DNA of 62,799 nt from Nitrospirota bacterium. Lineage in GTDB: Bacteria > Nitrospirota_A > Leptospirillia > Leptospirillales > Leptospirillaceae. This document shows, piece after piece, positions 11,228 to 62,745 of this stretch (position 1 is the stretch's first letter; the number at the start of each line of letters is the position of its first letter). The position numbers were made by a program, and so were the translations under genes. Below the pieces are notes generated by a model that worked only from the letters and a program-made list of their open reading frames with translations, did no database searches and was not told the origin of the DNA. Location of the stretch: NCBI GenBank assembly GCA_027415455.1, contig DAIBSV010000001.1, positions 1-62,799 on the forward strand. Reading direction: 5' to 3'.

Positions 11228-12370
11228 TCAAAAATCCTGGCTGTCCCGGAACCGGATGCCGATTGGAAAACGGGGAATGCCGTCGGCCGTTCTGCCTTGA
11301 AACTGGACGACCAGGCTTTGTCCCTGCCAAAGGTCGGGGCGTTTAAAAAGCTCCTTGAGCCGGGCGAGGGAACCTTTGAGCTTGGCATTGAAGGTCGCGC
11401 CAGTTTCCGTCTTGCAGACAAAACTTCCGGCGTGGCCAGCAAGGCGGCCTCGTCCCTCCTCGACCCCCACGATCAGGAATTCGGCATCGTCAAATTCCTT
11501 GACCTTCTGGAGATGGGGGGAACGGCGATAGGCATAGGGAGCGTCGAGATTGCGAACCATGGCCCCTTCATACCCGTCGGCCCGGCACCGCTGGAAGAAG
11601 TCGAAAACGGAGCCTTCGTCGTCGAGAAAGCGGGACGGGACCTGGATTAAGGGACCGGAAAACGACGTGGCCAGATCGGCCAGTCGCTCGATCCGGGCGA
11701 GCGTCGGAGCGTCGGGGTCGGCAAGGTCATAGATGTGGTACTGAACATCCGTGTGTCCCTCTCCCGGCTCATCCTTGCGAACGAGGGACATGAGACGCTC
11801 AAAGTCGCCCTTGAGGGCGTGATTATAAAGCTCGCCATCGAAGACGACGGTTTCATTGGGAAACGAGCGTTCGAGAGCGTTGACGATGTGAGGAACGGAG
11901 CGAATGGGTTTTCGTGTCCGGGTCCAAAGGCTCACCTTCCCGCGATCGACGACAGCGATGCAGCGGGCACCATCGAGCTTCGGTTGTCCCAGACACGGAA
12001 AGACGATCTTGTGCCCTTGATCCGCATATTTCTCGGCAAGCATGGGGAAGATGCCGCCCTCGATCGTCTCTTCGTCGACATGCCCATCCTGGGCCTGCGT
12101 GATCTTTTCGACATATCCCTTCTTTTTCTTTTTTTCCCATTGAGACCGTGCTTCGGCCATCGCCTGCTCAACGGGCGTTGTCGCATTCTTTTTCCCGGCG
12201 TTCCTTCCTTCCCGGATCACCTCCCGGGTCGACTGGGGACGATCGGTGCCGAGCTGACCATAGAGGGTCGAAATCACGCCGATGTCTCCGTCCTGGGAGA
12301 CGAAAATCTCCCAGAACTGGATGGCACCAGTAGATGTTTTCTTGAAAAGGCGGGGAAGGGACATGATCAT
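11228..12370 (-). CDS. lig: ATP-dependent DNA ligase with N-terminal WGR-like domain
   Basis: 380 aa. Residues about 15-65 resemble a WGR domain (FWEIFVSQDGDIGVISTLYGQ and EGRNAGKKNATTP). The nucleotidyltransferase core follows, with motif I KLDG (Lys131 as AMP acceptor), FDGELY, DGYEGAMVRN and LQKVKEF. The OB-like end has VCKTETGATFNAKLKG. It seals DNA nicks using ATP. GGAGGT six bases before ATGATCATG sets the start. A TGCATGCA-type repeat separates it from the upstream gene. Confidence 0.92.
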   Translation of the reverse strand: MIMSLPRLFKKTSTGAIQFWEIFVSQDGDIGVISTLYGQLGTDRPQSTREVIREGRNAGKKNATTPVEQAMAEARSQWEKKKKKGYVEKITQAQDGHVDEETIEGGIFPMLAEKYADQGHKIVFPCLGQPKLDGARCIAVVDRGKVSLWTRTRKPIRSVPHIVNALERSFPNETVVFDGELYNHALKGDFERLMSLVRKDEPGEGHTDVQYHIYDLADPDAPTLARIERLADLATSFSGPLIQVPSRFLDDEGSVFDFFQRCRADGYEGAMVRNLDAPYAYRRSPHLQKVKEFDDAEFLIVGVEEGRGRLAGHAGSFVCKTETGATFNAKLKGSLARLKELFKRPDLWQGQSLVVQFQGRTADGIPRFPIGIRFRDSQDF

Positions 12371-12389
12371 AACGAAACCTCCATAAGAG

Positions 12390-12407
12390 GGTGGGTGCAT
12401 GCAGTCA
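12390..12407. repeat. TGCATGCA-centred dispersed repeat, copy 1
   Basis: GGTGGGTGCATGCAGTCA, between the stop of the 12419 gene and the ligase ribosome-binding site. Confidence 0.9.
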
Positions 12408-18656: not shown

Positions 18657-18822
18657 CCGATTGCGCGGGAAACCCCGGCATTCATGCTGGGGCGGGATAG
18701 CGCCGTTCCCGCTTCTCCTTTCTGTGCCATCTGCGAAGACCCGTCTCCGTCTGCCCGCTGGTGGAGCCGACGGTGTCTCGATCTCCCCTCCTTAGGCTCC
18801 GCGTTCACGGCAGGGTGGTTGA
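18657..18822 (-). mobile_element. Internally deleted IscB-element relic
   Basis: About 166 bp. One end matches the last ~110 bp of the intact element at 29408-31026 (the gcgggaaacc...gcgggatagcgcc hairpin region). The other matches the start of its omega RNA (GTCAACCACCC and the CCGTGAACG hairpin). The iscB body is missing. It lies between the AAA+ gene and the ATG of the PEGA gene, abutting ATGAA. Confidence 0.85.
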
Positions 18823-18835
18823 CTGCCCCCTCCTG

Positions 18836-22214: not shown

Positions 22215-22781
22215 TTAGCCCTGTGGCACGGGATAGACGTTTGTGGAGCCAAGTTCCTGGACGGCCCCTTGCCACGTTGTTTTCCTGCTGGTAAACCGGA
22301 GAAGTCCGTCACCGGCCACAGCGGCCCAGAAACGCAGGACATTTTTCTCGAAAGAATCGACAGGCACCAGGCGGAGATCGTGGAGGGGGAAAAATCCACG
22401 GCGCTTGTCCGAAAATTCGAGCGTCATAATCGTCTCGATTTCCGCAACGATTCCGACATCCTCATTGTCCCGACCCTGGAAGCAAAAGGCGTCGCCAATG
22501 CGCACTTGCCGGCCGTTCCTCAGGCAGGCGTTACGGAACTCGGGCGGATTGGCCGGATCGTCCAGCGCGAAAGGATTGTACGGCAAAATGGCAGGACGTG
22601 GATCTTCCTCGTATTCCCGGCCGTCGAGCGTCAGCAAGGCCACCCGCTTACCCTCCGCGAAGAACGCCAGAGGAAACTCAGGAATGTTGGGAAAAGCTTC
22701 CAACCCCCCCCACACACCACAGGCATCACTAGAGCCGATATAGAAGGCCCGCTCTCCGGGCAACCAAGTACGAAATGCCAT
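22215..22781 (-). CDS. Hypothetical protein (188 aa)
   Basis: No family recognised. Beta-rich, with RNGRQVRIGDAFCFQG and VGIVAEIETIMTLEF suggesting a small barrel. The start MAFRTW is set by GAAGGAGG within the 260-bp duplicated cassette, so its ribosome-binding site and promoter are shared with 26584-27195. Confidence 0.62.
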   Translation of the reverse strand: MAFRTWLPGERAFYIGSSDACGVWGGLEAFPNIPEFPLAFFAEGKRVALLTLDGREYEEDPRPAILPYNPFALDDPANPPEFRNACLRNGRQVRIGDAFCFQGRDNEDVGIVAEIETIMTLEFSDKRRGFFPLHDLRLVPVDSFEKNVLRFWAAVAGDGLLRFTSRKTTWQGAVQELGSTNVYPVPQG

Positions 22782-22794
22782 CACCACTCCTCCT

Positions 22795-22944
22795 TCACGA
22801 GACATACCAAAGCAAAAGAGCAAAGACGATCTTTAAAAAGAGCATCAGGGCAAGAGCCGATCCCAGGGCCATCACGACGGAGTCCACGGGATCGGAAAAC
22901 ATTTTGTCATGAAAGACTTCGAGCTTACTGGCGATCTTTTTCAT
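22795..22944 (-). CDS. Small single-span membrane protein (49 aa), copy 1
   Basis: MKKIASKLEVF, a short polar part with DPVDSV, then a membrane span ALGSALALMLFLKIVFALLLW. GGAGG precedes the ATG. The copy at 27209-27358 differs at only a few residues, with mostly conservative changes, which supports a real gene. Function unknown. Confidence 0.72.
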   Translation of the reverse strand: MKKIASKLEVFHDKMFSDPVDSVVMALGSALALMLFLKIVFALLLWYVS

Positions 22945-22967
22945 GTCCGGCCTCCTTTGTTATATAT

Positions 22968-22996
22968 ATTGTATATAATTTAAAAGGGAAAGTCAA
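22968..22996 (-). promoter_or_regulatory. Promoter in duplicated cassette, copy 1
   Basis: TTGACT, 17 bp, TACAAT. Confidence 0.75.
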
Positions 22997-23038
22997 CGGA
23001 GCGAACTAGAATCGACGGGCGAACAGGACGGGCGAGGA

Positions 23039-23268
23039 CAGGCTGTATTCCTGTCCATGTTGCGGGATGGAAAAGGATCGGGATCATAACGCCTCTCTGA
23101 ACATTTTGAGACTCGGGATGGAGTCTCGGGGTTAGCCCCCGGAAGCTCCGGCGCTTACGCCGGTGAGCAGTCACCTCTATCCTGTCACCGAGCGAGGCAC
23201 GCCTTATATCTCCGGCCTGCACGCCGGAGTTTTACGGCGTTTTTTCGATAAACGCGCCACACTTTCCT
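23039..23268. other. Gene-free, hairpin-rich stretch
   Basis: No gene seen. Several inverted repeats lie close together: gactcggg/gagtctcggg near 23110, AGCTCCGGCGCTTACGCCGG near 23143-23162, and CTCCGGC/GCCGGAG at 23210-23229 followed by a T-rich tract on the plus strand. The second resembles the hairpin at the start of the IscB omega RNA, so this may be a decayed end of a related IS200/IS605-type element. Confidence 0.45.
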
Positions 23269-24809: not shown

Positions 24810-25180
24810 CAGTCATCCTCGCACTCCATTCGGAGATTCTTGACCCATTCCTCCGAAGGGAGATCCCCGGTGGCGTCCGGAAACATTCCGGTGAATTCAT
24901 GAAGGGACCGACGTTCGCTTTCCGGAGGAAAAATGAAAACATCGGAGAAATGGGAACGAGAAACCTCAAGCGAGAAAGGAAAGGTTTCCTCCCGATGGAA
25001 GGTCGCCAGACCACTGATGCGGACTCGCTTTCCGATGAGGGATTCAAAGAATGATTCCCAATCCTCTTTGAGGACAAACCGCGTCACCGAGGGATCTTCG
25101 GGAAGAATCCCTGGGCGAAGAAAGTACCCGGATTCATCTCGTTGCAGAATCCCCTCGACTGATGTCAGATAGGATTTCAT
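24809..25180 (-). CDS. Hypothetical protein (123 aa), start displaced by IscB-tail relic
   Basis: Beta-rich, reminiscent of small OB-like folds (GKRVRISGLATFHREE). No family recognised. Its ATG abuts the IscB-tail relic and has no good Shine-Dalgarno. It overlaps the chimeric gene's stop in ATGA, so translation is probably by coupling. Confidence 0.58.
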   Translation of the reverse strand: MKSYLTSVEGILQRDESGYFLRPGILPEDPSVTRFVLKEDWESFFESLIGKRVRISGLATFHREETFPFSLEVSRSHFSDVFIFPPESERRSLHEFTGMFPDATGDLPSEEWVKNLRMECEDD

Positions 25181-25524
25181 CCGATTGCGCGGGAAACCTC
25201 GGCAATCATGCCGGGGAGGGATAGCGCCTGTTCCCGCATTCCTTTCTGTTTGGCTATCTGTGAATATCCGTACCCGTTGGCCCGCTGGAGAAGCCGGCAG
25301 TGCTTGTGGGAGATCACCTGGACCACGCCGGATCCTGTCCGGACGTTGTTTTGAAAGATGGATTTGGGAGAGGGAATTCCGCCCCGAAGGGCGGCGGTTC
25401 CACTCCTGTGAGTTGCCCAGGTTGATGATTCGGAACGAACGCGATCAATCATCTGACTTTCGCTGAGCCGTGTCTCGTCTGGTTTTAGTCCCGAAAATTT
25501 TGCGAGCTTGTTTTCTATCGACAT
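25177..25524 (-). CDS. Chimeric gene: unknown N-terminus fused to IscB C-terminal tail
   Basis: 115 aa. Residues 1-59 (MSIENKLAKFSGLKPDETRL...) are host-gene sequence of unknown function. From VRTGSGVV on, the last ~55 residues match the end of the intact IscB at 29404-30774 (ISHKHCRLLQRA, GYGYSQIAK, GMREQALS). The fusion arose where an IscB element's 3' end joined the gene in frame. The stop TGA sits in the ATGA of the next gene. Confidence 0.75.
   Translation of the reverse strand: MSIENKLAKFSGLKPDETRLSESQMIDRVRSESSTWATHRSGTAALRGGIPSPKSIFQNNVRTGSGVVQVISHKHCRLLQRANGYGYSQIAKQKGMREQALSLPGMIAEVSRAIG
25181..25347 (-). mobile_element. IscB element 3'-end relic
   Basis: About 167 bp matching the 3' end of the intact element with several substitutions. 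Similarity stops abruptly after CGGACGTT. Its outer end abuts ATGAA, as in the other copies. Confidence 0.85.
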
Positions 25525-26583: not shown

Positions 26584-27195
26584 CTAAGGTTTGAGTTTGT
26601 CATCAAGGTGGACAGTAACCGCTCTCCGAAGCACATGGGCATAGACAGACGAGGCTGAAAAGCTCTCGGAGTTCATCTCCCCGGGCCAGATTTCTTGGTC
26701 AAAGAAGAAATCGCGAGCAGTCGGACTCGATGTTGCCACTTCAAGCGTGGACCCCACCCGGGACATGACTGCCTCGACGATGTTCTCAACGGTTTCTCTC
26801 GGATCTTCTCCGAGAAACTCTCCAATTTTCTCGGGAGCGGAGAGGCGATCAGCGATCCTGAAGATTTCCTCGAAAGAATTTGTTTCGAGGGGGAGCGTCT
26901 GCGTCTTTTCCGAAATCCATCCTTCGACGGCGGACGGCGACCCGTAGCTTTTCATGGGAAGATGGTTGAATATCAATCGCGACAATTCCGGGAGGCATCG
27001 CTTTCCGCATTCGTCGGCCGCCCCCATAGCGCCCATCAGGTCGTTCGAGAGAACCTTTAACAGGAATCCCCCAGGACGGACACCTTTTTTGGCGTATCGA
27101 TCAAGAGCCTCGAGAAAGGCAGGAGAAATATTCCGATATTCCGGATAATCCGGATTATCGTTTGCCGTCATGATGTCAAAAGATGTCTTAGTCAT
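26584..27195 (-). CDS. Hypothetical protein (203 aa)
   Basis: No family recognised. Helical; contains RNISPAFLEALDRYAKKGVRPGGFLLKVLSNDLMGAMGAADECGKR and a C-terminal VYAHVLRRAVTVHLD. GAAGGAGG within the duplicated cassette sets the start. Second gene after the 49-aa membrane protein. Confidence 0.62.
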   Translation of the reverse strand: MTKTSFDIMTANDNPDYPEYRNISPAFLEALDRYAKKGVRPGGFLLKVLSNDLMGAMGAADECGKRCLPELSRLIFNHLPMKSYGSPSAVEGWISEKTQTLPLETNSFEEIFRIADRLSAPEKIGEFLGEDPRETVENIVEAVMSRVGSTLEVATSSPTARDFFFDQEIWPGEMNSESFSASSVYAHVLRRAVTVHLDDKLKP

Positions 27196-27208
27196 CACCA
27201 CTCCTCCT

Positions 27209-27358
27209 TCACGAGACATACCAAAGCGCAAGAGCAAACACAATCTTCAGAAAGAGCATCAGGGCAAGAGCCGATCCCAGGGCCATCACGACGGAGTCCA
27301 CGGGATCGGAAAAGATTTTGTCATGAAAGACTTCGAGTTTCTCTGCGATCTTTTTCAT
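27209..27358 (-). CDS. Small single-span membrane protein (49 aa), copy 2
   Basis: MKKIAEKLEVFHDKIF, DPVDSV, then the span ALGSALALMLFLKIVFALALW. Few residues differ from copy 1. GGAGG precedes the ATG. Confidence 0.72.
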   Translation of the reverse strand: MKKIAEKLEVFHDKIFSDPVDSVVMALGSALALMLFLKIVFALALWYVS

Positions 27359-27381
27359 GTCCGGCCTCCTTTGTTATATAT

Positions 27382-27410
27382 ATTATATATAATTTTAAAG
27401 GGCAAGTCAA
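27382..27410 (-). promoter_or_regulatory. Promoter in duplicated cassette, copy 2
   Basis: TTGACT, 17 bp, TATAAT. Confidence 0.8.
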
Positions 27411-27419
27411 CGGAGCGAA

Positions 27420-27938
27420 CTAGAATCGACGGGCGAACAGGATGGGCGAGGAGATCCTGGCAAGACGGACCAGGATTTTCTCCTCTTCGGGAGGCAGGGA
27501 CGGGGTTCCCGTCAGACGGTGATAGCGCCGCCAGACGCGACGGACGTAACGCCGGTTCCGGTAAGACAAGTCATGCCAGAGGGGATGTCCGGCATTGTAG
27601 GCCGACACAGCATCCCAGACGAACGGATAGTGTTGGAGACGGGACTTGAGGTAACGAATCCCGTAGTAGAGATTCAGCCAGGGAGAATAGAGACGTCGGG
27701 GCGAACCACGGAAACCCATCATCCTGGCGGTTTCGGCCTTCACCTGCATGAGGCCATAGGAATACCGGCCATCGGGTTCCCGAACGCGGACGATTCTCCG
27801 GAAGTGACTCTCGGTGGACACGATAGCCGCCACGAGTCGGGGATCGACGCCAAACCGGCAGGAAAGGGACCGGATGGTATGTCGATAGGGCACCGGAGGG
27901 AGTAAAAGATGAAGACAGAGGGCCGTCGAGAGGATCAT
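27420..27938 (-). CDS. Lytic transglycosylase (SLT domain)
   Basis: 172 aa. Hydrophobic N-terminus (ILSTALCLHLLLPP) then the goose-lysozyme-type SLT domain: VDPRLVAAIVSTESHF (catalytic Glu44), YSYGLMQVKAETARMMGF, LYYGIRYLKSRL and AVSAYNAGHP. It cleaves peptidoglycan, the usual role of VirB1-like proteins in conjugation or of secretion systems. ATGA overlap with the methyltransferase. Confidence 0.9.
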   Translation of the reverse strand: MILSTALCLHLLLPPVPYRHTIRSLSCRFGVDPRLVAAIVSTESHFRRIVRVREPDGRYSYGLMQVKAETARMMGFRGSPRRLYSPWLNLYYGIRYLKSRLQHYPFVWDAVSAYNAGHPLWHDLSYRNRRYVRRVWRRYHRLTGTPSLPPEEEKILVRLARISSPILFARRF

Positions 27939-29407
27939 GCCGTCTGCTCCTTATGGAAGACGACTTTCGAGAAATTGGCATGGACGAGAGCACCGGCGAT
28001 GGGTGGACAGACAGAATTTCCGCATAGACGGATCTGGTGGCTCTTTGAAATCTTCGTTCCGTCGGGAAGCTGGTCGATCACGTAAGAGTCCGGAAAGCCC
28101 TGGGCGCGAAAAAGCTCCCTCGGCGACAGCATCCGCATCCCAATATCGACGATCTGGTAATTGACCCCATGAACAGTCACGAGTCCGAACCTGTCTTTTG
28201 TCGTAACCGTGTGCAGGGGCTCACGGAGTTTTGGGTCCTGGTCCGTCCCGTAATATTTCAAAAGGAAGGCCCGGACTTCGGCGACGTGGGTTCCTCCGGC
28301 CGTCAAGGACGGCATAGGTTCGTCGACGGGCTGGCCGTCCTTGCACGTTCCACGGAGTTTGACAAGACTTGATGCGACGAGAGCGACTTTACCACCGCCT
28401 CCGGCAGTAATGGTCCCGATCGGCATATCGAGGGGACCTCCGATACTGCTCTTGAAGTCCCTTTGTATATGGAGCATGACGAGAGAGTGATGATCCACGG
28501 CGGTCACGGTCGATACCGGCTCACTAAGGTCGCTCCCCGGCCTCTGGCCTTTGTCACCAAAGTGCTTGGCAAGAAAGGCCGATACGAGGGATTCCCTGGT
28601 TTCGCTCAACATAGAGACATCTTGCTTGACCGGTACAATGAACGGATCAGGGCAGTCGACCACATACCGCACGATCCCCTTGGCGATGCGCCTGAGAGTG
28701 GCGTCGGCCAGCGGCTTCTTTCGCTCGAAGATGGACGGGCACGGGATCGACCAGTCGATGCACTCGGCGGCCGTGCGCCACGGTTTCAACGTGGACTTGA
28801 ACAGACGACCCATTTTTACATTGGGATTGATATGGGTGGGCTCGGGCCAGACTATCGGTCGACCGTCGCACCGAGCGATCAGGAACAACCGTTTCCGGAT
28901 CGTGGGAGCCCCATAGTCGGCCGCACACAGGATCTTATATTCGATCTCGTACCCGAGGTTCTTGAGCTGTGCCATCCATGCCCGGAACGTCTTGCCCTTC
29001 CGGTGCGGGCATGGCTTGTTGTCCGGCGTCAGTGGACCCCAATCGGAAAATTCGGGAACATTTTCCAGAATAATCACGCGTGGATGGACAGCCTTGGCCC
29101 ATCGAGTCACAACCCAAGCCAGGGACCGGATGTTTTTCTTGACTGGCTTACCTCCTTTGGCCCGCGAAAAATGACGGCAATCCGGGCTGGCCCACATGAG
29201 TCCCACAGGCTGTCCCTTGGTTGTCTGAATTGGATCGACGTCCCATACGCTTTCGCAAAGATGGGAAGCCCATGGATGGTTGACCTCATGGATTCCGATG
29301 GCAATCTCATCGTGGTTGACAGCGAAATCGACAATGAAACCGGCCATCTCGATCCCTGTACTGGCTCCCCCTCCACCGGCAAAAAAATCGACAACAAGCT
29401 CATTCAT
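27935..29407 (-). CDS. DNA (cytosine-5) methyltransferase
   Basis: 490 aa. Motif I FFAGGGGAS (8-16), motif IV ASPDCRHFS with catalytic Cys77 (Asp in place of the usual second Pro), ENVPEF (motif VI), RKRLFLIA (VIII), a long target-recognition region of about 200 residues with repeated TVT / TIT / SLTAGG strands, and GNSVCPPIAGAL (X). No restriction endonuclease is adjacent, so it is a solitary methylase, perhaps anti-restriction. Its ATG is where the IscB element inserted. Confidence 0.92.
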   Translation of the reverse strand: MNELVVDFFAGGGGASTGIEMAGFIVDFAVNHDEIAIGIHEVNHPWASHLCESVWDVDPIQTTKGQPVGLMWASPDCRHFSRAKGGKPVKKNIRSLAWVVTRWAKAVHPRVIILENVPEFSDWGPLTPDNKPCPHRKGKTFRAWMAQLKNLGYEIEYKILCAADYGAPTIRKRLFLIARCDGRPIVWPEPTHINPNVKMGRLFKSTLKPWRTAAECIDWSIPCPSIFERKKPLADATLRRIAKGIVRYVVDCPDPFIVPVKQDVSMLSETRESLVSAFLAKHFGDKGQRPGSDLSEPVSTVTAVDHHSLVMLHIQRDFKSSIGGPLDMPIGTITAGGGGKVALVASSLVKLRGTCKDGQPVDEPMPSLTAGGTHVAEVRAFLLKYYGTDQDPKLREPLHTVTTKDRFGLVTVHGVNYQIVDIGMRMLSPRELFRAQGFPDSYVIDQLPDGTKISKSHQIRLCGNSVCPPIAGALVHANFSKVVFHKEQTA

Positions 29408-30774
29408 CCGATTGCGCGGGAAACCTCGGCATTCATGCCGGGGCGGGATAGCGCCTGTTCCCGCATTCCTTTCGGTTTGGCTATCTGTGAATATCCATAC
29501 CCGTCGGCCCGCTGGAGAAGCCGACAGTGCTTGTGGGAGATCCCCTGGACCACGCCGGATCCTGTCCGGACGTTAAAACTCCCGGAGGAGCGGACGGCGA
29601 CGCGGCCGACATGGATTCCCGCCTTTTTCCCGGAGGGCACCGTGGCCCGGACGAGATCGCCGGTGCGGAAACCGAAGTGCGTCTTGTCTTTCGGACAAAA
29701 CCGGATCGGGAAGCCGAATGTGTCCGTCCGGGCGACCTGCCGGGTCCCGTGACCGGTGGCACGAATCCGGAGAGGGATCGTTCCCGGGTCGAGACGGACG
29801 GCTTCCCCGGACGTTCCGACGCAGGCGGCATCGATCCAGTGGGCCTTCGGGTACTCCTGACCGGCCCGGTTGAACTTCGTGCGTCCTCCGGATCCTGTCT
29901 CGACGGGAAGGCCCGTGTGTGTCAGTCGCCCAAACAGCGCCCACCGGGTGGTGTTGACGGCCGCCGCGTCCTTCAGAGGGGACTGGGCCCGGGAGAGGAT
30001 CTTGGCGAGAAGATCCGACTTCTTCGCCAGGAACTCCTTGACCGGACGATTGCCCTTCTTTTGGTTACAGGCCCGGCAGGCAAGCGTCAGATTCGAGACC
30101 CGGTCGGATCCGCCCTTACTTCGCGGGTGAATGTGGTCGATCTCCAGGGGCACGTTCCCGGCCCCGCAGTAGGCGCAGGCCCGACCCCATTTTTCCAGCA
30201 GGTACTCCCGGACCTCGTAGCCGGCCAGGGTTCCCTGCTGGTAGTCGACCCCGGCGATCTCCGGATTGGCGATCTTTTGCATGTCGAACCGGACCAGCTC
30301 CTGGGCGATCCCCACCACAGGGGCCAGCCTCCGGAAGCGTTCGACCCAGGCGAGGGTCGTCTCGATCCGGTGTTGCAGACTCGGAGGAAGCCAACCCGAC
30401 GGCCTCGTCCGGTTGTTGAAGCGGGGAGCCCGGTAGCGGGTCTTGCGGGAACGCCGTCCCCGTCTCACGGCCCGTCGTGCGGCCAGGCTGTTCTTGATCG
30501 CCTGCCCCCGGTGTTCCAGTTCCGCCGCGAAGACGACCGTCTGCCCGCTTTTAAACCTGGCGACGACCGCAAAACCCGTCGTTCTGCTCCCGGGATCGAT
30601 CTTGACGGAGACAGGCTGGACCTCCCCGGACTCCCGTCCCTTGAGAATGATCGTAAAGGGGTAGTGTCTGAACACGGCCGCCTTTCCGTCCCGAAGCATC
30701 TGCCGGGCGCGGGCCGGAGAACACGGCATCAGAGGCTGTTTGGTGTTCGAGAGAACGAAAACCCTGTTTTGCAT
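29404..30774 (-). CDS. iscB: IscB RNA-guided nuclease (OMEGA)
   Basis: 456 aa. PLMP domain (QPLMPCSPARARQMLRDGKAAVF, 13-36), RuvC-I KIDPGSRTTGF with Asp60, Arg-rich bridge helix (about 99-121), RuvC-II Glu159 in AQELVRF, HNH domain CAYC...EIDHIHP...CRAC (200-240), RuvC-III His312/Asp315 in HWIDAACVG. All catalytic residues are present, so the protein should be active. IscB is the ancestor-type relative of Cas9 and cuts DNA guided by omega RNA encoded just upstream. GGAG precedes the ATG. The stop TGA uses flanking bases from the next gene's ATGA. Confidence 0.96.
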   Translation of the reverse strand: MQNRVFVLSNTKQPLMPCSPARARQMLRDGKAAVFRHYPFTIILKGRESGEVQPVSVKIDPGSRTTGFAVVARFKSGQTVVFAAELEHRGQAIKNSLAARRAVRRGRRSRKTRYRAPRFNNRTRPSGWLPPSLQHRIETTLAWVERFRRLAPVVGIAQELVRFDMQKIANPEIAGVDYQQGTLAGYEVREYLLEKWGRACAYCGAGNVPLEIDHIHPRSKGGSDRVSNLTLACRACNQKKGNRPVKEFLAKKSDLLAKILSRAQSPLKDAAAVNTTRWALFGRLTHTGLPVETGSGGRTKFNRAGQEYPKAHWIDAACVGTSGEAVRLDPGTIPLRIRATGHGTRQVARTDTFGFPIRFCPKDKTHFGFRTGDLVRATVPSGKKAGIHVGRVAVRSSGSFNVRTGSGVVQGISHKHCRLLQRADGYGYSQIAKPKGMREQALSRPGMNAEVSRAIG

Positions 30775-31026
30775 GGATTACTCCATCGGGGCTTGCGCCC
30801 GTAAAGTTTGCCTCGCCAAAGTTGCGTACCGGCGTATTGTCCCGGCCCGTTTCGTCCTTGCCCTCGCGGTTGTCTGCAACCGGGACTTCCAGAGCCCGGA
30901 ACTGGCACGCATCCCGGGGTGGGTCTTTTACCTGTCCGCAACGTCGTTCCCGAAGAACTCAGGCTGGTCAACCCGAGCTTGTCGAACCTCCTTTCAAGCT
31001 CCGCCGTTCACGGCGGGGTGGTTGAC
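29408..31026 (-). mobile_element. Intact IscB-bearing IS200/IS605-like element (no transposase)
   Basis: Ends were fixed by comparing the relic at 18657-18822: the left end (omega-RNA side) starts GTCAACCACCC, the right end finishes CGCAATCGG. No TnpA is encoded, so movement would need one in trans. It sits between the 31303 gene and the methyltransferase. Removing it restores a stop/start junction. Confidence 0.85.
30775..31026 (-). ncRNA. Predicted omega RNA of IscB
   Basis: About 250 nt directly 5' of iscB, the known place of IscB omega RNAs, with no other gene of its own. It is GC-rich with paired segments, including CCGCCGTGAACGGCGG at the start and GGTTGTCTGCAACC inside. The guide would be the ~16 nt flanking the left end (31027-31042, read on minus). 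Confidence 0.75.
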
Positions 31027-31303
31027 CACCATATTCCGGCATTGAGAGCGTCCACTCGGCAACCAGGTTCTGCTCCGCATGAACGGCCACCCCTCGCTCA
31101 ACACCCCACCCATTTTCGTTGGAATTGATCGTCACCGAAAACGGAATCTCCCATCCTTTCTTCGCGAGAAAAATATCCGCAAGGTCACGAGGCGCACAAT
31201 AGGAGTCAAACTCAAAGACCTCTCCGACTTTCCGGGTAACGCTGAGGTCGGAGAAAACGTCGGGATCAAAAAGGGATTCGATGAGGGCATCGGTATCGCT
31301 CAT
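30968..31303 (-). CDS. Hypothetical protein, C-terminus replaced by omega-RNA sequence
   Basis: 111 aa: native part to about residue 93 (...LSMPEYGG), then ~18 residues (QPPRRERRSLKGG...) read from the IscB element's left end. Without the insertion the frame would stop almost at once, next to the methyltransferase ATG. No family recognised for the native part (FLAKKGWEIPFSVTIN). Confidence 0.6.
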   Translation of the reverse strand: MSDTDALIESLFDPDVFSDLSVTRKVGEVFEFDSYCAPRDLADIFLAKKGWEIPFSVTINSNENGWGVERGVAVHAEQNLVAEWTLSMPEYGGQPPRRERRSLKGGSTSSG

Positions 31304-31394
31304 GGGGATCTCCGGCAAAGAGTTGGGGAAACATGTCAGACCATCGAGAACGCCGTAGAAAGACTGATGAATACAAATCTCATTTCTTATATAT

Positions 31395-31469: not shown

Positions 31470-31775
31470 TTATGAGACCCGGCGTTTTGACGTCCCCGAA
31501 AAGCGGGATCTGCGGATGCGAAAATGAGGAACGCCCATGCAAAGGATCTCTTTTAACGAAAACAGATAGGAAACATGGCGGGCTGCGGGATCTTCTCTCC
31601 AATCGCGCAACAGTCGCACGGCCTGTCCCAGACGATCATCGGCGGGGTGACCAACGCTTTCTCTCAGGATCGCGGCGAGATCGTTGAGGGCGGCGATGTC
31701 CTTTTTTCCGGACGGAGACGCATCCTGCTCCCACATTTGAAGACGACGAATGGCTCTTTTGATGATTTTTTTCAT
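31470..31775 (-). CDS. Hypothetical protein (101 aa)
   Basis: Basic N-terminus (MKKIIKRAIRRLQ) and a helical acidic-to-basic chain. No family recognised. It lies just downstream of a sequence related to the IscB 3' end, which may have displaced its ribosome-binding site, since none is clear. Confidence 0.5.
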   Translation of the reverse strand: MKKIIKRAIRRLQMWEQDASPSGKKDIAALNDLAAILRESVGHPADDRLGQAVRLLRDWREDPAARHVSYLFSLKEILCMGVPHFRIRRSRFSGTSKRRVS

Positions 31776-31794
31776 GTTTTTTTCGGGGGCAACC

Positions 31795-31866
31795 CTGGAA
31801 GGGACCAGGACGGGATAGCGCCGGCTCCCGCACTCCTTTCTCTGCTATCTCATGTACATAAAACAT
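31795..31866 (-). mobile_element. Possible fourth IscB-tail relic
   Basis: Reading on minus, the frame HEIAEKGVREPALSRPG parallels the IscB tail SQIAKPKGMREQALSRPG, and the DNA keeps the GATAGC ... GGCGCTATCCCG core. Beyond this it diverges. Confidence 0.55.
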
Positions 31867-35468: not shown

Positions 35469-36337
35469 GGGTTGATCCTCCTCGAAGGTTAGCTCACGTT
35501 ACCCGAAACGGTCGAAAGGGGCAAGCGTTTCGGGTATATCGGATGCAGGTTGGACCCGTATCTTTTAAGTATAAAACGTATAAAAGAGTAATGGTTTTCT
35601 GAAATGCCGACCAGTGCTGTGTTTTTGACGGTTTTTTGCACGCGATATACCCGAAAAGCGCACGCGATATACCCGGGTTTGCACGCGATATACCCGAAAA
35701 GTGCATCTGATATACCCGAGTGCATCTGATATACCCGAAAAGTGCATCTGATATACCCGAGTGCACGCGACAGATCCGGAAAGTGCATCTGATATACCCG
35801 AGAAAAAATTAGAGTAACACATTGATAAAACTTAAAAATATCAAAAAAACGCATGACGTGCGTCTCCCAGGACGGAAACAGTCGGACACCCGTCCGAAAG
35901 GACAATCAGAAGGGTGACAACAATAAAACATCGTCAATCAACAACAAAAACAAACATACCACAAAAAGCGGCGCAATGAAGAAAATGTCCGAATGTCGTT
36001 TTCATTCAAAACGTCATTTCACAAAAAATCATATTAAGTTCATGAGAACAAAACGAAAATTGAAAAGAAACGATGAAAGGGGTGCATTCGATATACCCAC
36101 AATATAATGTTAGAGCGTAAATCTTAAGATGTTGTAATATAACAAAAAAACATGAAATTGCATCTGATATACCCGGACGGAAATCGTATCGCCCGTGGAA
36201 GGAGAGACAAGGAACCATCGATGGAGAAAGGGAAAATGTAACATTGTGCATGTGATATACCCGAGCGGACACGAAGGCGATGATTGTTAAGATACTGAGA
36301 AAACGGGATAAAAATGAACAAGTGCATTCGATCCGCA
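35469..36337. other. Origin of replication (gene-free)
   Basis: About 870 bp without a convincing gene. It holds one inverted iteron (35530-35546), eight clustered direct iterons, an AT-rich stretch (about 35802-36080) with runs of A and CAAC, and scattered iterons at 36083, 36160, 36248 and a partial one at 36323. This is the standard layout of an iteron plasmid origin next to repA. Confidence 0.88.
35638..35801 (+). repeat. Iteron array (8 direct copies)
   Basis: 17-bp unit GCA(C/T)C(G/T)GATATACCCGA. Starts at 35638, 35660, 35681, 35703, 35722, 35744, 35763 (degenerate) and 35785, spaced 19-22 bp, about two helical turns. The first three are of the CACGCG subtype, most others CATCTG. Confidence 0.95.
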
Positions 36338-40247: not shown

Positions 40248-41432
40248 TTAGCCGGCCAATTCTTCGGCCACGGGCATGACGATGAGCGAGAGACCGGGAA
40301 GATCGGAGAAACCCCAGACTGTCGGATCGTTCTCGCAAAGAAGCGTTTTCATCGTCAGTTCAGAGTTTTTTCCAAGCTCGGCAACGAGCTGAATATAGCG
40401 GAAATTCAGCTTGAGATCGACAGCCGTGGAGTGGGTGCAGGGAAGGAATTCCGAGGCAGCCCCGACCTCAGTGCTTTCCGATGCGAGATAGAGCTCGGAG
40501 TCTTTGTCAAACACCTTGAAGGAAAAAACAGACTCGCCGGGAGTCTCGTCACTGGAGACGATGGCAAGACGGCGCAGGCTGGCGGCAAAGTCACTCCCGG
40601 AAAACGTCAGGGAGGTCTCCGTCAGGGGCAGGGCAAAAACGGCGTTGTAGTCGGGGAAGCTGGCGGCGGCGACCCGGGCATAGAAGCGAATCTCCCCCCA
40701 GGAAACTTCGATATAGCGTTCGTTGACGTCGATCGTGACGGGAAGGCTTGCCGAATGCCGGGTGTCATTGGACAACAGCTGGAGGAGGTCAAGCATGAGA
40801 TCGCGATCGCAGAGAATGCGCCGGGAGGGCGTTTCCTCCGAAAGCAGGAGATCGAAGGAATTGTCGATCATCACCCGCCCACGTGCCAGTCCGACCGTAT
40901 CGGTGGCCACGATGTCGAGTCGGACGCTCGTCTCGTCAACGTAGGCGAGATCGAACAGGACATTGCGGAAGGGCCCCCCTCCTTTGGCCGTAGAGGCGAA
41001 TGGAAGGACCCGATGAAGGGTATCACGGAGGGTATCGAAGGGAACGTGGAACGAATAGAGAGGGACGATTTTGGGAAAGGCGAGAACCTCTTTCTTGTCG
41101 AAGAGACGAAAACTGACAACGGACGAAGAGCCATTGTTCATCATGACGACATGAGACGCCACATCAAAGGTGATCTCGCTACCGGAGAATTCCCGAACAA
41201 GGGGAACGATGCGATTGGCGGGCAAGGTAAAGACCCCTTCGCCATCGTGGGACAAGACGGGGAGGATGTAGCGGGTTCCGGCAGAACGGGAGAAGCCGCT
41301 CAAGGCGAGCTGGCCTTTTTTGATGGCGAAAATAATCTGGTCGTACCCCGGCTCCTTGTCCTTTTTATCAAGGACCGTGTTGGCGATTTTGAGCCCGTGG
41401 GCGAGGAGAGCGCGAGAGACGGTGAATTTCAT
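40248..41432 (-). CDS. dnaN: DNA polymerase III beta subunit (sliding clamp)
   Basis: 394 aa. The opening MKFTVSRALLAHGLKIANTVLD is the classical DnaN start. The second domain begins near residue 130, with ILCDRDLMLDLLQLLSND, SWGEIRFYARVAAASFPDYNAVF (the RLIDGxFPDY equivalent). The C-terminus ends VMPVAEELAG, where DnaN ends in MPMR-like residues. CGGAGG sets the start. A plasmid-encoded clamp suggests the element tunes its own replication. It diverges from chromosomal clamps but all three domains are present. Confidence 0.88.
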   Translation of the reverse strand: MKFTVSRALLAHGLKIANTVLDKKDKEPGYDQIIFAIKKGQLALSGFSRSAGTRYILPVLSHDGEGVFTLPANRIVPLVREFSGSEITFDVASHVVMMNNGSSSVVSFRLFDKKEVLAFPKIVPLYSFHVPFDTLRDTLHRVLPFASTAKGGGPFRNVLFDLAYVDETSVRLDIVATDTVGLARGRVMIDNSFDLLLSEETPSRRILCDRDLMLDLLQLLSNDTRHSASLPVTIDVNERYIEVSWGEIRFYARVAAASFPDYNAVFALPLTETSLTFSGSDFAASLRRLAIVSSDETPGESVFSFKVFDKDSELYLASESTEVGAASEFLPCTHSTAVDLKLNFRYIQLVAELGKNSELTMKTLLCENDPTVWGFSDLPGLSLIVMPVAEELAG

Positions 41433-41485
41433 GGAATCCTCCGGAAAAAGGGGGGCGGGAACCCGAAAGGCCCGCCCCGGGTCGG

Positions 41486-41752
41486 TCAATCGATTTGAAG
41501 CTGGTTTACGAGAAAAAGGATGTCGACAGACGTCAAGAAGGCGGTGTTTCGTCCGCATCGTTCCCACATAAGACGCTGAGCCACGGCCTTGTCCTTGTTT
41601 TTTTCCCGAAAGGCGCCATCGAACTGGAAGATCCGATCGACCGTGGGGTCCATCGAAAAAATAAAGTAGGCCGCCCCGTCGTCGATATAGTCGGAACAGG
41701 CCATGAGATCATCTTCAAGAAATTGTTCTGGCGTCAGAATCAGATTTTCCAT
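41486..41752 (-). CDS. Hypothetical protein (88 aa)
   Basis: Acidic N-terminus, then VDRIFQFDGAFREKNKDKAVAQRLMWERCGRNTAF. CAAGGAGG sets the start. Promoter-proximal gene of the clamp operon. No family recognised. Confidence 0.62.
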   Translation of the reverse strand: MENLILTPEQFLEDDLMACSDYIDDGAAYFIFSMDPTVDRIFQFDGAFREKNKDKAVAQRLMWERCGRNTAFLTSVDILFLVNQLQID

Positions 41753-60421: not shown

Positions 60422-60522
60422 ATGTATAAGAACGCGAGCCGGACAAAACACGCCGTAAGGGCTGTCTCTTGGTAGGATCGAACCGGAAGCCAACCAATCA
60501 CCTCACGTCATTGGAGAACATC

Positions 60523-62745
60523 ATGAAAAAGAAAAACACCACAACACAGCCGATCACGCCGGTCATATCAGAAAACGCACGAAAGGTCCTGGAAAAGAGG
60601 TATCTGGTGCGAGACGCCGAAGGAAAGGTCACCGAGACGCCGGAAGATCTCTTCCGTCGGGTGGCCACGTCCATCGCCTCCGTCAATCCCGAAGAGGAGC
60701 GGGGCGCCTTGGGAGACATCTATTACGAGATGATGGCCACGATGGACTTCATGCCGAACTCTCCGACACTCATGAATGCGGGGCGTCCGATGGGTCAGCT
60801 GTCCGCCTGTTTCGTCCTTCCCGTGGGCGATTCGATGCCGGAAATTTTCGAGGCGATCAAGCAGACGGCTCTCATCCACCAGACGGGAGGCGGCACGGGA
60901 TTCTCCTTTTCGCGGCTTCGGGGCAAGGGAACGATCGTCAAGTCGACAGGGGGGGAAGCATCGGGCCCGATCTCGTTCATGGAGGTCTTCAATACGGCCA
61001 CCGGCGCCGTCTCTCAGGGGGGGAAGCGCCGGGGAGCGAACATGGGCATTCTGCGGGTGGACCATCCCGATATCCTCGACTTCATCGAGTGCAAGACCGA
61101 TCAGACCAAGATCACGAACTTCAACATCTCGGTGGCGATCACGGACACATTCATGAAAGCGGTGCAGGCAGACGGGGAGTACGATCTGATCGCTCCGGAA
61201 ACGGGCAAGGTGGTGAAGTCTCTTCCGGCGCGCATGGTCTTTGACAAGATTGCCCATCATGCCTGGGTCAACGGCGAGCCGGGCCTGTTCTTCATCGACA
61301 CGGCCAATCGGGAGAATCCGACGCCCTCCCGCTGGAGCTACGAGGCCACGAATCCCTGCGGAGAGCAGGTCCTTGGACCGTACGAGTCGTGCAATCTCGG
61401 ATCCATCAATCTGGAAAACCATGTCATCGAAAAGCACGGCACGACGGTGACCGATTGGGAAAAGCTGGGGAGCACGGTGCGCCACGCCGTCCGGTTCCTT
61501 GACAACGTGGTGGACGCCAACAAGTTCCCCATGGAGGAGCTGTCGAAGGTCAATCGGGGAACCCGGCGGATTGGACTGGGGATTATGGGATTCTCCCGGT
61601 TCTTGATGCTCCTGGGCATCCCTTACGATTCGGAAGAGGGGCTGGAGATGGCGGAGAAGGTGATGGCGTTCATTCGGGAGATGGCGGAGAAGGCCTCCCT
61701 GGATTTGGCGAAGGTGCACGGTCCCTATCCCTACTATGAGGGCATCGGCTCTCCCAAGCGGAACAGCCATCTGTTGACGATCGCCCCCACCGGCACGATC
61801 AGCATGATCGCCGATACCTCGTCGGGGTGCGAACCGGAGTTTTCCATCATCTGGTACAAGAACGTGATGGACGGGACACATCTTCCCTACACCCTCGAGA
61901 TGTTCGAGGCGGTGGCCAAGAAGGAAGGGTTCTGGAGCGACGAGCTTCCGTCTCTCATCGTTGAGAACCATGGATCCTGCCGGGGACTGGCCCAGGTTCC
62001 AGAGAAGTGGCAGCGGGTGTTCGCCACCGCCCACGACATTGCTCCGGAATGGCATGTCCGCATGCAGGCGGCCTTCCAGAAGCACATCGATGCGGCCGTG
62101 TCGAAGACCATCAACATGCCGAACAGCGCCACGGTGGAGGACGTGCGGAACGCCTATCTTCTGGCCTATTCGCTGGGGTGCAAGGGAATCACGGTCTATC
62201 GGGACGGAAGCCGCTCGAACCAGGTGCTGAATGCCGGATCGTCGGACAAGAAGGAGATCTCTTCGCCGGTGAACCCTGCCGAGCTCCATTGGGGCCAGAA
62301 GAGGCCGAAAGAGGAGATCAGCCGGGGAACCCGGGTCAAAATCAGCGGCAAATACGGGAAGTCTTACGTGCATCTCTACTTCGATGAAGAGAAGCGGCCC
62401 ATGGAAATCTTCGTGACGCCGGCGGCGGATCATGGCGAGCGGGAATCGGCGATTCTCTTTGGGCGATTGGGATCGTTGGCGCTCCAGTATGGGGCTCCGA
62501 TCGAAGAGATCGTGGAACAGTTCATCAAGAGCCATGAGGAAGCCGGACGTCTCGGATCGGATCCGTATGCGATTGCCAAGGCGATCGGAACGATCATCTC
62601 GAGGGAAGGTCTGGTCGGCGACGAAGGACTGAAGATCGAAGTCGCCTGCCCGTCCTGTGGAGGTCAGGTGGCCTTCATCGAGGGGTGCCTCAAGTGCATG
62701 GGATCGAAGAAGACCGGGGCTCCTTGCGGGTGGAGCCAATGCTAA
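60523..62745 (+). CDS. nrdJ: Vitamin B12-dependent ribonucleotide reductase
   Basis: 740 aa class [13 protein letters not shown] and [11 protein letters not shown] near the N-terminus, [27 protein letters not shown], active-site NPCGEQ...[39 protein letters not shown], and [13 protein letters not shown]. The C-terminus has a zinc ribbon (CPSCGGQV...CLKCMGS) and a final CGWSQC redox pair. It reduces ribonucleoside diphosphates or triphosphates using adenosylcobalamin, without oxygen. GGAGA precedes the ATG. It can feed replication of the element. Confidence 0.95.

Follow-up and report, generated by a model that had tools for sequence, protein, structure and literature searches.

An IscB/omega-RNA element of a Nitrospirota replicon whose nuclease gene takes its stop codon from the start site of a host gene

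How does an RNA-guided mobile element come to lie directly against the start codon of a host gene, and what does this position mean for the two genes that meet there? The question is raised by a locus of a Nitrospirota bacterium (contig DAIBSV010000001.1), within a stretch of 62,799 nucleotides analysed here as a whole and hereafter called the window. On its minus strand, the last bases of an iscB gene are also the first bases of a cytosine methyltransferase gene. A preliminary description had proposed an intact IscB/omega-RNA element with base-exact ends, and family models, covariation and a homologous insertion elsewhere agree in placing an IscB/omega-RNA (HEARO) element of 1619 bp at 29408..31026 of the minus strand. 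Judged from its sequence, the element is complete. It belongs to a known class of mobile elements, those that pair IscB with a guide RNA, and this class is related to the ancestors of Cas9.

The nuclease, its RNA and the replicon

The iscB gene (29404..30774, minus strand) encodes 456 amino acids, its final three bases, TGA, lying outside the element. A Pfam scan of this frame returned RRXRR and HNH domains, and the family model NF040563 (guided_IscB) scored 470.3 bits against a cut-off of 175. The catalytic residues named in the preliminary description were all found in the protein (D60, E159, H312 and D315, with the HNH stretch LEIDHIHPRSKGGS...NQKKGN), at positions that fall within the stretches aligned to solved IscB chains. 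Directly 5' of iscB and 26 nt from it, the non-coding stretch described earlier as structured was identified by covariance search as the HEARO/omega RNA scaffold (30801..31026, minus strand, first bases GTCAACC), matching RF02033 over model positions 1-211 with 115.8 bits (gathering cut-off 83 bits). Among 14 aligned sequences picked from the window and from the 22 HEARO hits in the genus of a related Nitrospirae metagenome-assembled genome (MAG), 24 of the 58 predicted pairs displayed two-sided compensation, counted where at least one sequence had changed on both sides and kept the pairing. The 16 nt of upstream flank at 31027..31042 (minus strand, ...GCCGGAATATGGTG) are presumably the guide, a placement which we take by analogy from IscB omega RNAs; followed by ATGA, they have a single match in the window at up to three mismatches, the filled site itself.

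The element adds one member to IscB/HEARO (OMEGA), an already known kind, with which it shares the protein family, the HNH and RuvC residues, the HEARO RNA 5' of the gene and the ATGA beside the right end; ATGA or GTGA was reportedly given as the HEARO target by Weinberg in 2009. It differs from that system in that the stop codon of iscB comes from the flank and the C-terminal tail is encoded by the transposon end. Cas9 has HNH and RuvC domains as well, and its models match the window protein weakly; the protein differs from it in having 456 aa and in scoring 59.7 and 32 bits, where the cut-offs are 375 and 100.

The replicon is likely a plasmid, as the preliminary description had it, judging by a replication initiator (PF10134, 34527-35468, minus strand) and iteron-like repeats, although the window has no overlapping ends. 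These repeats, GTGCATCTGATATACCCGA, lie at 35635-35811, upstream of the initiator. A near-identity search of window positions 16000-40000 found nothing in phages and, in plasmids, a single match of 77 bp in the methyltransferase. The same replicon encodes a ribonucleotide reductase (60469-62745), a DNA polymerase clamp-like protein (40248-41567) and an ATP-dependent ligase (11228-12400), and contains a 267-nt direct repeat (22779-23045 and 27193-27459, 93% identical). Between 4944 and 60272, an AT palindrome, TATATATAATATATA, recurs in 13 copies of one repeat family (D2) and also in families D1 and D5; by eye its copies overlap a TTGAC...TATAAT-like promoter before ORFs, perhaps as one operator of a plasmid-wide regulon. 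Another motif, TGGGTGCATGCA, recurs at 12389, 14017, 33114 and 62753 (family D11).

Ends, empty sites and related copies

The closest relative was found in the Nitrospirae MAG on two contigs, which probably carry two halves of one element, one locus (L005) being 95% identical to the left part and the other (L001) 88% identical to the right part. Homology with L005 ends one base beyond GTCAACC, and homology with L001 ends at CAATCGG/GATTGG plus a common ATGA, the flanks beyond differing in both cases; the gene downstream of L001 is an E1-E2 ATPase according to Pfam (kdpB by eye). These limits fix the ends GTCAACC and CAATCGG as first proposed, and a relic elsewhere in the window has both ends too. 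The span 29408-31026 holds at both ends, with the qualification that the iscB stop lies outside it, in the flanking ATGA. This tetranucleotide, the target and presumed TAM (29404..29407, minus strand), provides the iscB stop TGA and the downstream gene's start ATG. The right end proper (29408..29475, minus strand) consists of a hairpin, CCCCGGCATGAATGCCGAGG, and the terminal CAATCGG, and also encodes the C-terminal tail of IscB; it is common to the copies in the window and partly also to a TnpA element.

Downstream lies the C-5 cytosine methyltransferase gene (27935..29407, minus strand; PF00145, 118.8 bits), whose start codon abuts the element. Upstream, the element has displaced the 3' end of an ORF (31027..31303, minus strand, ATG at 31303-31301). 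As it stands (30968-31318), this ORF had no Pfam or NCBIfam match and no confirmed relative in viral_contigs. When the flanks are joined, it ends ...EYGDE* just past the junction, and the expectation that deleting 29408-31026 would restore the 3' end of this gene with a stop at the junction was thus borne out.

Of 13 joined sites, six (L129, L130, L133, L134, L138 and L139) have an empty counterpart in sister genomes whose match spans the junction, and L275 has a weak one at 67%; for the six others, both window sites included, the 14 genomes searched in the genus gave no match. Within 25 nt of the junction, six of the 13 empty-site alignments chosen are free of gaps and 11 keep ATGA, L310 and L311 reading CTGA and CTCA instead; the least clean alignment (L139) has 9 gap positions near the junction, and the clean cases have no target duplication. 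The reconstructable empty site of the preliminary description is in this way supported by analogy with the sister genomes, while the proposed search for relatives carrying the window's own empty site gave no match either in the 14 genomes or in viral_contigs. The methyltransferase is common in viral_contigs (at least 80 loci kept), and uninformative for the empty site.

Other copies of the right end lie on the minus strand of the same window. The relic spans 18657..18823 (167 bp, one base more than the 18657-18822 of the preliminary description) and has both ends; its right end abuts the ATGAAC of an ORF that appears signal-peptide-like by eye, and its joined site has an in-frame stop 4 codons upstream and a Shine-Dalgarno match of 6. 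Two further copies add to the preliminary description: a copy of the iscB right end that lacks its 5' part (from 25176 or 25180 to 25347, 96% identical) and lies against the ATGAAATCC of an ORF, and a diverged remnant (about 31776..31866), before ATGAAAAAA of ORF 31470-31775. Beside the truncated copy, at 25348-25450, a hairpin (CCGCCGCCCTTCGGGGCGG) by eye resembles the end of another IS605-type element.

In the genus of the Nitrospirae MAG, HEARO matches occurred in 5 of 14 genomes (4 above the cut-off), giving 22 hits (17 above the cut-off), 14 of them in a single genome (G005). Eighteen hits start with GTCAAC at model base 1, and their left flanks all differ, except one common to L109 and L121; the remaining four begin at contig ends (L125, L126) or are diverged (L115, L117). 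Three elements of 429-444 bp (L132, L133, L134) have a HEARO and both ends with no iscB match. Ends kept without iscB, which the preliminary description had set against its own reading, do therefore occur, in these three and in the relic; we read them as non-autonomous derivatives, no refutation of an element, and the reading as an element stands.

The stop codon of iscB and the host start codon

The iscB stop, TGA, lies outside the element, within an ATGA that also holds the methyltransferase start codon. This arrangement recurs among relatives. In 14 of 20 rows, comprising the window and all 19 over-cut-off iscB hits in 198 Nitrospirota genomes, iscB ends in a TGA that the flanking NTGA contributes (13 ATGA, 1 TTGA). 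Six rows lack it (L128, L131, L136, L276, L278 and L279): in L131, L136, L278 and L279 the stop comes 2 nt before the element end, and L128 stops earlier. Another 33 rows were chosen from at least 45 hits in genomes on the Chloroflexota and Myxococcota side (26 of 35 and 7 of 10); by eye 5 to 7 of them have a borrowed stop (L247, L260, L261, L268 and L284 may share it, L269 and L270 being doubtful), while in most the frame closes earlier, frequently within the hairpin loop. This makes 53 iscB right ends read in total; L137 is a broken iscB of which the end was read; L143 and L144, which run off their contigs, and loci with no iscB match gave no row. In this lineage, iscB often has no stop of its own and relies on one that arises at the host start site.

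Among the best 120 of 8000 homologues scored, 37, judged from protein sequences alone, carry a read-through tail ending in Gly, whose codon in the loci is composed of GG from the element and A from the target; one of the 37, included by hand (P0002), has the same sequence as residues 87-456 of the protein in the window itself. A tree was built from sequences truncated ahead of the tail, at the DGY.Y motif if it was present; on it the tail required 7 changes, shuffling gave a mean of 31.9, and none of 500 shuffles was as low (quick method). All 37 fall inside one 45-leaf clade (SH-aLRT 96, midpoint root), near-copies adding to the clustering, and 8 of the 45 leaves have no tail.

Is this frame maintained for its own sake? 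It could also be a neutral by-product, in which the hairpin stop was lost once, the target always supplies a TGA and the tail is kept as transposition DNA, and we give this account even chances. The right-end hairpin that encodes the tail has to be kept anyway, and losses do exist, in L131, L136, L278, L279 and L128 as in the tail-less leaves of the clade. Against it, the exact frame has been kept in 14 of the 20 rows and in 37 of the 45 clade leaves, though small indels would break it.

The position of the element relative to host genes was compared with that of ATGAs on both strands of the same DNA, a comparison that leaves selection outside. For 16 two-ended elements, the joined flanks were start-like in 12, as against 12.8% of 905 control ATGAs (p about 2e-8, assuming independence), and not start-like in four; one (L128) was gene-internal-like, against 14.5% of controls. 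Downstream frames of at least 100 codons followed 17 of 24 right ends (three of the window's four, L001 and 20 from relatives, with L140, L142, L276 and the 31776 remnant excluded), against 27.3% of the 905 controls. Between -20 and -4, 12 of the 16 joined sites match the Shine-Dalgarno sequence over 4 nt or more, compared with 31% of 1156 controls; the window's own joined site has a match of 3 nt, which counts against the explanation we prefer. Eight of nine downstream products scanned had a Pfam domain (L279 had none), namely E1-E2 ATPase, ThiF (from residue 9), Glycos_trans_3N (from 3), Exo_endo_phos (from 6), a biotin domain, TPR, a weak GGDEF and a nucleotidyltransferase, and in L130, L139, L138 and L275 the domain begins within the first 22 residues. 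Copies of this lineage thus usually sit directly before the start codon of a host gene.

Some loci have approximate right ends, namely eight plasmid iscB regions and 26 chromosomal rows outside the genus; among such loci, L281, L282, L285, L315 and L318 show an apparent abutment of the start codon. In L281 and L282 (both in G404) the same element end precedes two different ORFs, of 179 and 280 codons, that each begin with ATGA. An AAAGG stands some 10 nt ahead of the start, and the element may there supply a ribosome-binding site of its own.

An abutment of this kind does not require a preference for start codons. Survivorship, with insertion at any NTGA and loss of the copies that land within genes, is in our view a rather probable explanation of the pattern: by eye the targets share only the bases ATGA/TTGA, and a copy that lands at a start codon leaves the coding sequence unharmed, in line with the single gene-internal-like case. 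The start-like excess is no strong objection to it, the control being all ATGAs and not tolerated sites alone.

Mobility and a proposed mechanism

No Y1 transposase was found in the element, in which 26 nt lie between iscB and the HEARO, and the long opposite-strand frame at 29527-30804 had no Pfam match. Y1 TnpA matches occurred in 8 of the 14 genomes of the genus, while G005, the genome richest in HEARO, had no PF01797 match. On one contig of another genome of the genus (G001:C77), a Y1 TnpA gene stands beside a TnpB gene (TnpB by eye), and the TnpA-side end of this element is 87% identical over 52 nt to the window right end and abuts ATCA, not ATGA; its opposite end is not clearly alike. 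IS200/IS605 elements with Y1 TnpA and TnpB thus resemble the window element in a hairpin near the end, the absence of target duplication, a fixed tetranucleotide at one end and, for the G001 element, apparent homology at one of its two ends; they differ in that neither tnpA nor tnpB was found in the window element and that its target is ATGA. The Y1 TnpA genes in the genus and the similar end of the G001 element make mobility in trans by a Y1 TnpA likely, as far as sequence can indicate. Among the relatives, insertion occurred beside a fixed short target without duplication, a result that does not extend to the window's own site.

The absence of a transposase found in cis and the truncated copies in the same window would also fit an element that is dead or domesticated and serves the plasmid, for instance by regulating the methyltransferase. 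We consider this improbable, given that the catalytic residues and the RNA are intact, that a near relative stands at another site in G001 and that G005 has 14 HEARO hits. Our preferred reading, held with good confidence, is an IscB/omega-RNA element without its own transposase, inserted immediately before an ATGA with no duplication of the target, which borrows its stop codon and would move in trans and be maintained by a guide-dependent cycle.

In the known cycle of such elements, the DNA is excised by TnpA as a single strand; guided by the flank, the nuclease cleaves the empty site, and the element is regained through repair. By the mechanism we propose, a Y1 TnpA of IS605 type, acting in trans, would cut at NTGA and move the element. 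The omega RNA would take about 16 nt of left flank as its guide, IscB would read ATGA as the TAM, and the nuclease would cut the empty site left by excision, a sister copy then restoring the element. Insertion would fall mostly between the Shine-Dalgarno sequence and the start codon, and for this reason leave the host coding sequence intact. From the abutment, the Shine-Dalgarno matches and the empty sites together, we infer that the presumed guide copies the translation start region and that the start codon serves as TAM. The lineage would have lost the stop codon inside the right-end hairpin, so that iscB reads through the transposon end to a stop in ATGA. Ribosomes finishing iscB could then restart on the host gene, and such translational coupling through the ATGA overlap is plausible because the insertion separates the Shine-Dalgarno sequence from its start codon.

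A stronger version may be put forward tentatively, and we regard it as possible but rather doubtful: a transposon lineage specialised on translation starts, with a Shine-Dalgarno guide, a start-codon TAM and a stop-less nuclease gene forming an ATGA stop/start overlap at each host gene, where host translation would depend on translation of the nuclease and loss of frame would cost the host. Among the matches listed in the literature searched (titles and abstract openings, with the founding HEARO/ISC papers outside its scope), nothing described a borrowed IscB stop or insertion at start codons, and the combination of the two is a variant of IscB/HEARO that this search did not turn up. It shows a way for an RNA-guided element to land beside genes without breaking them, with one stretch of DNA acting as transposon end, protein tail and, together with the target, stop codon. 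Natural close variants with and without the tail are on offer for its study.
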